64,000 nucleotides of DNA, from positions 1 through 64,000 of the forward strand of contig JAFMCB010000001.1 in NCBI GenBank assembly GCA_017858095.1. Direction: 5' to 3'. The stretch is from Methylophilaceae bacterium (GTDB lineage Bacteria; Pseudomonadota; Gammaproteobacteria; Burkholderiales; Methylophilaceae). Position numbers and translations under genes: made by a program. Below the pieces are notes generated by a model, which worked only from the letters and a program-made list of their open reading frames with translations, ran no database searches and had not been told where the DNA came from. The first letter of the stretch is position 1. Every line of letters starts with the position of its first letter. Below, piece by piece: positions 27,040 through 29,892 of this stretch.

Positions 27040-28212
27040 TTACTTCGTTAGAAAAATTAAGTCCGATTTGATGTCTTCAATATCTTCGATTCCAACCGCA
27101 ATTCGAATCAAATTGTCCTGAATATTTGCCGCGTCTCTCTCAGCTTGAGAAAGTCTTGCATGTGTAGTGGTTGCCGGGTGCGTGATGGTAGATTTTACAT
27201 CTCCAAGATTGGCAGTGATAGATAACATTTTTGTTGAATCTATCAATTTCCAAGCCTCTTTCTTTGAACCTTTTATAGCGAACGATAAAACACCTCCACC
27301 AAGTAACTGTTGTTTCCTTGCTAAAAGGTACTGTGGGTGCGATTTTAAGCCTGGATAATAAACACGCTCAACTTTTTTTTGCTTCTCTAGCCATAATGCT
27401 AATTCAAGCGCATTTTTGGAATGAGCCTCCATTCTTATCTTAAGCGTTTCAAGCCCCTTATAAAACACCCAGGCATTAAATGGACTTAAAGTTGGTCCAG
27501 CTGATCTTAAAAATGAAAATACTTCCTTCATATCTTTTTCTCGGCCTAGAACAGCACCACCCAAACAACGTCCCTGACCGTCCAGGTATTTTGTCGCTGA
27601 ATGAATAATGATATGTGCCCCAAGCTCAATTGGTGTTTGCAAAGCGGGTGTGCAAAAACAATTATCAACAATTAACTTACAACCATTAGCATCTGCTAAA
27701 TTGGCAAGTTTCTTAATGTCACAAAGTTCAGTCAAAGGGTTTGAAGGGGTTTCAACAAACATTAATTTTGTTGTTTTCTTTACAGCCTTCTTCCATTGTG
27801 CAAAGTCAGTTAAATCCACATAAGTAATATCTAATCCCCAGCGTGATAAAATATTGTTAAAAAGCTGGATGGAAGTTCCAAAGATGCTTTTCGATACAAC
27901 CACATGATCACCCTGCGAGCAGAGTGACATAAAGCATGCCAGAATAGCCGACATACCACTTGCAGTTGCAACACATCTCTCTGCACCTTCTAGTGCAGCA
28001 AGGCGATCCTCAAACATTTTTATTGAGGGATTAGTAAATCGTGAATAAACATTGCCGCTATCAGGATTTGCAAATCTATTTGCTGCTTCTTTTGCATTTT
28101 TAAAAACAAAACTTGAAGTCAAAAACATCGCCTCAGAGTGCTCTTGCTCCTGAGTCCTAATAACTCCTGACCGAACTGCGTCAGTCGAAAATTTTGTTTT
28201 ATTTTTTTTCAT
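27040..28212 (-). CDS. metZ: O-succinylhomoserine sulfhydrylase
   Basis: Cys/Met PLP enzyme, IIHSATKYLDGQGRCLGGAVLG; classic purF-metZ neighbourhood. Start set at MKKNKTKF (28212) because the track's upstream extension is the riboswitch leader. Confidence 0.93.
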   Translation of the reverse strand: MKKNKTKFSTDAVRSGVIRTQEQEHSEAMFLTSSFVFKNAKEAANRFANPDSGNVYSRFTNPSIKMFEDRLAALEGAERCVATASGMSAILACFMSLCSQGDHVVVSKSIFGTSIQLFNNILSRWGLDITYVDLTDFAQWKKAVKKTTKLMFVETPSNPLTELCDIKKLANLADANGCKLIVDNCFCTPALQTPIELGAHIIIHSATKYLDGQGRCLGGAVLGREKDMKEVFSFLRSAGPTLSPFNAWVFYKGLETLKIRMEAHSKNALELALWLEKQKKVERVYYPGLKSHPQYLLARKQQLLGGGVLSFAIKGSKKEAWKLIDSTKMLSITANLGDVKSTITHPATTTHARLSQAERDAANIQDNLIRIAVGIEDIEDIKSDLIFLTK

Positions 28213-28223
28213 GACAAATATCC

Positions 28224-28252
28224 AAAAAAAAACCCGCACAGCTTGACGGGTT
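28224..28252 (-). terminator. Intrinsic terminator in the metZ leader
   Basis: Minus strand AACCCG-TCAAGCTGTG-CGGGTT followed by a run of 9 T; lies just before the metZ RBS/ATG. Confidence 0.85.
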
Positions 28253-28258
28253 AACCTC

Positions 28259-28310
28259 GCTTTAGCTGTTATTTTTATTGCGCCCGCAAGCTGATAATTC
28301 AAATCGGCGC
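28259..28310 (-). ncRNA. SAM-II-like riboswitch aptamer upstream of metZ
   Basis: Minus strand GCGCCGATTTGAATTATCAGCTTGCGGGCGCAATAAAAATAACAGCTAAAGC. Shares the SAM-II elements GCGC-YGAUUU...UUGC...GCGC-A/U-rich-GCUAAA; P1 GCGCC(28306-28310)/GGCGC(28280-28284). Confidence 0.85.
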
Positions 28311-28318
28311 ATGTAAAT

Positions 28319-28346
28319 ATTATCCCCTTCTCATATAAAAGGTCAA
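28319..28346 (-). promoter_or_regulatory. Putative sigma70 promoter for metZ leader
   Basis: Minus strand TTGACC (28341-28346), 16-nt spacer, GATAAT (28319-28324), directly upstream of the aptamer. Confidence 0.6.
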
Positions 28347-28350
28347 GGCT

Positions 28351-29892
28351 CTAGACGTGCTCTTCTTGCTCAACTCCATAACTCACTAAATTAAGGTCCA
28401 TTTGCGTAGTAGAATTCGTTGGCTTTTCATTTAAATTATCATCCGCGCGAAGCATTTCAATTTTACTTAAATAAGTTTCTGTAATGTCGCCTGTTACATA
28501 ATTTCCATCAAAACATGAGCAATCAAAACTTTTTAAATGCTGGTTTTCTTCAGTGACGGTTGATTTTAAGTCTTCAAGATCCTGATAAATTAGTTTATCA
28601 GCACCAATTTCTTTTAAAATTTCTTCATCTGATCGGTTGTGAGCAAGTAATTCTTGTCTTGATGGCATATCGATTCCATAAACATTGGGGTATCTTACCG
28701 GTGGTGCCGCCGAGGCGAAATAAACTTTATTGGCACCTGCGTCTCTTGCCATTTGAACAATTTCTCTAGAAGTAGTGCCGCGTACAATTGAATCATCAAT
28801 CAATAATACATTTTTATTTCTAAATTCAATTTTGATTGGATTTAACTTCTGCCTTACAGATTTTTTTCTTAATGCTTGACCTGGCATAATGAATGTACGG
28901 CCAATGTATCTATTCTTGACAAAGCCCTCTCTTAAGTCGGCATTAAGTTTTAAGGCAACCTCTTGCGCACAAGGACGACTCGTATCAGGTATTGGAATTA
29001 CTACATCAATGTCTGTCTCACCCCATTCACTAATAATTTTTTTTGCTAATGTCCTTCCCATATTCAAGCGCGTTTGGTAAACCGATACGTTATCAATGAG
29101 GGAATCAGGTCTGGCTAAATATACATATTCAAAGATGCAAGGCGCTCTTTTTTTAGATTTTACGCATTGTTTAGAATAAAAATTGCCATCCAAATCAATG
29201 AAAATGGCCTCTCCTGGCTCAACATCTCGTAACAGCCTAAATCCTAAGACATCAACAGCAACACTTTCAGAGGCAACCACATACTCAGGGCCAGCTTCTG
29301 TCTCCTTAATGCCAATAACCAATGGGCGAATACCATGAGGGTCCCTAAAAGCAAGTAAGCCAAAGTTTGCAATCATTGAAACCACTGCATACGCGCCATT
29401 ACATCGATTAAATACCGAAGTGACAGCGTCAAATATAATGTCGGAAGTTAAGACATTTTTTTGCGTAGACTTTTCTACCGCATGTGCAAAAACATTGAGC
29501 AATACTTCTGAATCAGAATTGGTATTAATATGCCTTAGGTCTTGCTTAAACATATCTTCTTTAAGACGTTCAGAATTTGTTAGGTTGCCATTGTGGCCCA
29601 AGACGATACCGTAAGGTGAATTTACATAAAAAGGCTGCGCTTCGGCGGCTGAAGATGACCCTGCAGTAGGATAACGCACATGACCAATCCCAGCATTTCC
29701 AGTCAAATGTCTCATGTGTCTTGTATGAAAAACATCTTTTACTAACCCATTGCTCTTATGCATGTAAAATCTACCGCCATCACTTGTGACGATTCCTGCG
29801 GCATCCTGCCCACGATGTTGAAGAACAAGCAAACCATCATAAAGCATCTGGTTGACTGGTTCATTAGCTACAATGCCGATTATTCCACACAT
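28351..29892 (-). CDS. purF: Amidophosphoribosyltransferase
   Basis: [60 protein letters not shown]. Confidence 0.97.

Follow-up and report, generated by a model that had tools for sequence, protein, structure and literature searches.

The purF–metZ intergenic region and its aptamer

The window, i.e. the whole stretch of 64,000 nucleotides that was analysed, belongs to the genus of Methylophilales HTCC2181, which agrees with the betaproteobacterial host guessed in the initial annotation. On its minus strand purF and metZ are separated by 138 nt that contain, in this order, a promoter, an aptamer, a terminator, a GGA and the ATG of metZ (28212-28210). The features are listed below. A1 is an alignment of 42 relatives from which the window's genus was wholly excluded, and R1 is the model built from it.

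28351-29892 (-): purF, same-strand neighbour upstream of metZ (TIGR01134, 535.6 bits)
28341-28346 (-): promoter -35 TTGACC (from the sequence; position conserved in relatives)
28319-28324 (-): promoter -10 GATAAT, spacer 16 nt (from the sequence)
28245-28320 (-): SAM-II (SAM_alpha, RF00521) aptamer, extent of the Rfam match (cmscan 32.3 bits, E 8.6e-6)
28255-28310 (-): aptamer core, R1 match (68.6 bits, E 7.2e-17)
28306-28311 (-): P1 5' strand UGCGCC, pairs with 28279-28284
28301-28305 (-): GAUUU, conserved SAM-binding strand (L1), putative here ((near-)invariant in A1; fits the U10 and U11 sites in PMC11508383)
28286-28293 (-): P2 5' strand CAGCUUGC, near-invariant in A1, pseudoknot partner 28258-28266
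28279-28284 (-): P1 3' strand GGCGCA, pairs with 28306-28311
28264-28269 (-): putative antiterminator 5' strand ACAGCU, pairs with AGCUGU 28243-28238 in the minimum-energy fold of the whole leader
28258-28266 (-): GCUAAAGCG, P2 3' strand with putative SAM-binding residues, predicted antiterminator strand without SAM (GCUAAA invariant in A1)
28224-28252 (-): intrinsic terminator AACCCG-UCAAGCUGUG-CGGGUU with U-run (nine T, 28232-28224), seen in the sequence; hairpin -8.7 kcal/mol
28221-28223 (-): GGA adjoining the U-run (from the sequence), a putative weak Shine-Dalgarno
27040-28212 (-): metZ, O-succinylhomoserine sulfhydrylase, 390 aa (NF006003, E 1.8e-200; TIGR01325 above cut-off)

The initial annotation had named metZ as the target of a SAM-II-like riboswitch, and two curated models bear out the gene: its product scores 665.7 bits against NF006003 (cut-off 522) and also exceeds the cut-off of TIGR01325. 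The promoter proposed at the same time, TTGACC-N16-GATAAT, was found at 28346-28319 (-) and its position is conserved, i.e. of 142 related leaders 108 have TTGAC 26-52 nt upstream of P1, mostly at -35 to -39, whereas shuffling would give 3. The same placement of the promoter relative to SAM-II was described by Corbino 2005 (PMC1273637). Transcription of metZ is predicted to start at about 28312-28310, at the base of P1.

The RNA described in the initial annotation is present on the minus strand as GCGCCGAUUUGAAUUAUCAGCUUGCGGGCGC (28310-28280), an A-rich linker and GCUAAA (28266-28261). When the whole window was compared with Rfam, no family reached its gathering score. With permissive filters RF00521 was the best family for the metZ leader, and the next best match in the 1.15-Mb genome lies four orders of magnitude behind. 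Taken literally, the RF00521 search suggested in the initial annotation fell under one of its refuting conditions, since the score of 32.3 bits is below the cut-off of 36; the E value, however, is 8.6e-6 in a 301-nt stretch, and the same threshold also misses the element in the named relatives HTCC2181 and Nitrosospira. We note that the 36-bit gathering cut-off is a curation threshold and not a structural feature; Burkholderiales relatives with the same core score from under 36 up to 45.2 bits. RF01726 (SAM-II long loop) reached 21 bits on the metZ leader, under its 44-bit cut-off. Matches to SNORD79, Trp_leader, anti-hemB and Atu_C9 in the leader were far under cut-off and were dismissed as chance.

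R1 matched the window with 68.6 bits (E 7.2e-17), the runner-up match reaching 12.7 bits. As 18 of the 42 members of A1 were retrieved with a pattern in which the letters of P1, and some of those of the core, were fixed, this score measures likeness to the A1 set and not covariation of P1. R1 also matches 137 of 150 Methylophilaceae genomes, and in the window's genome it found no second SAM-II aptamer (next match E 0.5). The conserved SAM-contacting residues GAUUU, UUGC and GCUAAA are all present in the window and near-invariant in A1. A mere chance resemblance to SAM-II is ruled out by the E values of RF00521 (8.6e-6) and R1 (7.2e-17).

Both helices covary in relatives; the initial annotation had named a lack of covariation as grounds for refutation. 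In 143 leaders the P2 pair just outside CAGC/GCG has a mutual information (MI) of 0.248 versus 0.050 in permutations that ignore the relatedness of the leaders (0 of 1000 as high), and this extension pair is paired in 73% versus 57%. The P2 extension beyond CAGC/GCG is short in the window. Within A1, 94.2% of the P2 cells and 96.6% of the whole structure are paired, and the whole structure pairs at 24-58% when the 3' partners are slid by 1-3 columns. The outer P1 pair, G28310-C28280, occurs as G-C, A-U, C-G or U-A among diverged copies; rows of the class C leaders described below were mis-anchored by an early UUGC and left out of this P1 count. P1 varies little in most of the beta set and is nearly fixed as GCGCY/RGCGC, which is in part an effect of selection, since the pattern used to collect many of the members leaves P1 no freedom.

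The window's element shares with the SAM-II of RF00521 (Corbino 2005) P1, the H-type pseudoknot P2, GAUUUG, CUUGC, the A-rich L3 and GCUAAA, as well as a promoter a few nucleotides before P1, a terminator and a methionine gene. It differs in scoring under the Rfam cut-off, in its short P2 and, together with the beta set, in a near-fixed P1. The conserved core GAUUU..UUGC..GCUAAA also occurs in SAM-V, and sister genomes contain SAM-V-like elements. Nevertheless, it is very improbable that the leader is a SAM-V class riboswitch, or a SAM-II/SAM-V variant whose ligand has changed by drift: RF01826 (SAM-V) has no match in it (best in the genome E 1.27, at another place), R2, a model of SAM-V-like elements, finds nothing in the window's genome, every conserved core residue of the beta SAM-II set is kept, and the regulated gene is a methionine gene. 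The SAM-II class proposed in the initial annotation is supported by the R1 score, by RF00521 as best family and by the covariation of P1 and P2, and it is confirmed that 28245-28320 (-), between purF and metZ, is the aptamer of a SAM-II-class riboswitch.

Terminator and proposed switch

The terminator between the aptamer and the ATG was absent from the initial annotation. A U-run within 120 nt 3' of the aptamer is found in 111 of 143 related leaders. At -8.7 kcal/mol the window's hairpin looks weak beside the relatives' median of -18.1, although the latter were folded with more flanking sequence. When the full leader is folded, its MFE structure has P1 and ACAGCU/AGCUGU with inner pairs and lacks the terminator, and the same region has already reached -17.4 kcal/mol before the 3' arm of the terminator is transcribed; the pseudoknot is not included in these folding energies.

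The 3' P2 strand shows the clearest complementarity to the terminators. TTTAGC, its complement, occurs in 23 of the 108 terminators against an expectation of 1.5, and duplexes of NNNNGCUAAAGCGNNN (3' P2 strand) with the terminators average -13.5 kcal/mol versus -9.9 in shuffles. The strand CAGCUUGCGGGCGC is less specific (-15.6 versus -13.5 kcal/mol), and the control strands, P1 5' and L3, showed no enriched pairing with related terminators. An earlier candidate antiterminator, AGCUUGCGGG with CCCGUCAAGCU (-12.8), is possible but was ranked second, since the enrichment of the 3' P2 strand is stronger and more specific. Within the window itself the competing helix could be either of the two.

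The proposed sequence of events is as follows. RNA polymerase would start at the base of P1. If SAM is absent, ACAGCUAAAGCG would pair with CGUCAAGCUGU, i.e. with the 5' arm and loop of the terminator, so that no terminator forms and metZ is transcribed. When SAM is present, CAGCUUGC would pair with GCUAAAGCG, forming the P2 pseudoknot around SAM and freeing the 5' arm of the terminator; AACCCG/CGGGUU could then close ahead of the U-run, and transcription would stop just short of the ATG. In other words, the SAM-bound P2 and the antiterminator use the same residues, and SAM should therefore favour termination. The nearest tested case is the metZ SAM-II riboswitch of S. meliloti (Scheuer 2022, PMC9373788), which is predicted to act in the same way and where a terminated RNA of about 100 nt is commoner under high SAM; we count this in favour of SAM-dependent termination. 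That leader likewise precedes metZ and has a predicted SAM-dependent terminator; it differs in being alphaproteobacterial and experimentally studied, with the terminated RNA seen on a Northern blot.

An aptamer that is real but acts mainly on translation, through access to the Shine-Dalgarno, or has a dual output, would fit the GGA directly 3' of the U-run, the dual effects of S. meliloti SAM-II leaders (PMC9373788) and the GAGG within P2 of the class C relatives. We regard it as unlikely, because P2 of the window contains no Shine-Dalgarno, and a nine-U terminator stands between aptamer and ATG, with a U-run likewise in most related leaders. It is highly probable that the SAM-II riboswitch shuts metZ off at high SAM via transcription termination. 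Aptamer identity, P1/P2 covariation, the terminator, the conserved promoter and a competing helix were established by computation, as were all results of this work; SAM as the ligand, the direction of the switch and its kinetics are what we infer.

Earlier records and distribution

The initial annotation saw a range extension of SAM-II in the betaproteobacterial host, which does not hold. The founding SAM-II (metA motif) alignment of Corbino 2005 already includes Bordetella bronchiseptica (PMC1273637), and SAM-II with terminators was reported from beta-Proteobacteria in 2007. In Leyn 2014 (PMC4239095) SAM_alpha was detected in Rhizobiales and Rhodobacterales only, and that study reported from beta-proteobacteria a "metXZ" RNA, called novel and given no ligand, with a pseudoknot, an alternative fold and a terminator. 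It precedes metX in 30 of 35 cases, and metZ in three Methylophilales, Nitrosospira and Thiobacillus. The window's element is like metXZ in clade, genes, pseudoknot with alternative fold and downstream terminator, and differs in that metXZ was described as novel and was assigned no ligand. It is also found at HTCC2181 and Nitrosospira, named genomes that match metXZ by gene, taxa and anatomy. The two are very probably the same element, as judged from gene, taxa and architecture and not from a sequence alignment; in the literature searched we found no paper that equates the metXZ RNA with SAM-II.

A second record is RF02424, derived from Bp2_Cand287_SIPHT (Bp2_287), a "Burkholderia sRNA" that precedes methionine genes in the majority of genomes (Khoo 2012, PMC3521395). 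This family matches the window at 28189-28344 on the plus strand with 19.8 bits, and the SAM-II core is visible in the alignment as reverse complement. Such a match could suggest that there is no riboswitch and that the leader is an antisense small RNA as in RF02424 or, in another form of the argument, the terminator of purF with a chance similarity. This is hardly credible, given that RF00521 outscores RF02424 at the metZ leader, that promoter, U-run and gene order all agree with the minus strand, and that the aptamer covaries. Moreover, in 101 related genomes 20 of 24 RF02424 matches (E <=0.01) overlap an RF00521 or R1 match, always on the opposite strand; the remaining four have no SAM-II partner in the match lists. 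The family's own cut-off of 70 was not reached in any of these 101 genomes, which include no Burkholderia. RF02424 and the window's element lie in intergenic regions of one type (purF, metZ, metX), and the RF02424 consensus contains the SAM-II core when reversed; the differences are the strand and the annotation as sRNA. RF02424 appears, with good support, to be the reverse complement of the beta SAM-II aptamer, annotated on the wrong strand.

The element is thus real, correctly named SAM-II and ordinary for its bacterial class. It links records that seemed separate, SAM-II, the metXZ RNA with no assigned ligand and an sRNA family apparently on the wrong strand. What this analysis adds is that two entries, in databases or the literature, probably need another name, and that the platform changes within the genus as described below. 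If this is true, homocysteine synthesis in much of the beta-proteobacteria would be under SAM-II control that is often missed by Rfam cut-offs.

An exact 25-base core occurs in at least 118 genome stretches, with 67 beta-, 24 gamma- and 12 alphaproteobacterial ones among the matches listed; the few core matches outside these groups may be contaminant or mis-binned. The reading frames downstream of the core and of the Rfam-found loci are metZ (52, the window's included), metX-like (30) and metH-like (17), besides metK and transporter genes, where all group names except metZ were read from the sequences and not profile-scanned. The set metZ, metX, metH and metK fits SAM as the ligand.

Two variants were observed among these loci. 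In L078, L086, L096, L102, L124 and others, L3 is enlarged between P1 and AAAUACGGCUAAA by additional sequence that often forms a hairpin, and several such leaders precede metX- or metH-like genes. Tandems were seen in the Burkholderiales loci L012, L017, L032, L034 and L037, where the terminator of the first element is followed by another SAM-II-like element (GATTTAA..ACAACTTGC.. or similar).

metZ leader architectures within the genus

The metZ leaders (L187-L197, L205-L209, L229 and others, from G001-G030) were compared in 26 genomes of the window's genus, one of which (G009) was unclear. Class A (7 genomes, including the window and HTCC2181) has SAM-II and a terminator. Class B (4 genomes) has a diverged SAM-II, a terminator and, before the ATG, a second element, GGUGGAUUUAUACCAACUUGC..GCUAAACAGGAA. 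Class C (8 genomes) has SAM-II without a terminator and GAGG within the 3' P2 strand, and class D (6 genomes) has the second type of element alone, GGGUGAAUUUAGUCCAACUUGC..GCUAAAAAGGAA. A generic motif scan found the arrangement of the second element in 18 of 20000 shuffled class B/D leaders and in 8 of 10 real ones. It was also observed that class C and D leaders have no terminator and carry the Shine-Dalgarno in the pseudoknot strand.

Three of the classes each form one clade of the MetZ tree, with support of 100/100 for C, 100/98 for B and 100/100 for D, and B and D are sisters (99/98); class A comprises the outgroups and early branches, and C joins B+D weakly (84/82). On the simplest reading of these sequences, class A would be ancestral and two separate changes would have followed. 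The ancestor of B+D would have been a tandem, replacement or transfer being the alternatives.

The second element resembles SAM-V, as judged by sequence. RF01826 matches the sister-genome copies that stand before small genes weakly (32.6 bits, cut-off 41). R2 is strong on those copies and on the second elements of metZ; it was built from many of the same copies, so these scores are not independent. In the R2 alignment only one P1 pair is compensated, which supports P1 but says nothing for P2. Tandem SAM-II and tandem SAM-II/SAM-V are known arrangements (PMC9481103). Class B resembles the tandem SAM-II/SAM-V of Pelagibacter (PMC9481103, PMC11508383) in having SAM-II with a terminator and, 3' of it, a SAM-V-like element that holds the Shine-Dalgarno; the differences are that the tandem is absent from the window, that the class B hosts are OM43-type and that their second element is under the Rfam SAM-V cut-off or unmatched.

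There may have been two independent moves from transcriptional to translational control, a reading to which we give an even chance. Class C would have dropped the terminator and taken the Shine-Dalgarno into P2, class B would have added a SAM-V-like aptamer 3' of the terminator, class D would later have kept this new aptamer alone, and the window would represent the ancestral form. The variation within the genus is a natural series for such a shift; if the twofold switch is true, a fixed gene, close relatives and intermediates make the change of platform directly testable.

SAM-V-like elements with AGGAG were also seen before short hypothetical genes for which Pfam gave no match above cut-off (L254 in G008, L255 in G019, L256 in G023, L257 in G005, L258 in G013 and L259 in G028). 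A pair of SAM-V-like elements lies 225 nt apart in G005. Single copies of the second type of element occur at L200 (G047), L201 (G060) and L202 (G055), and L201 precedes the start of metK.
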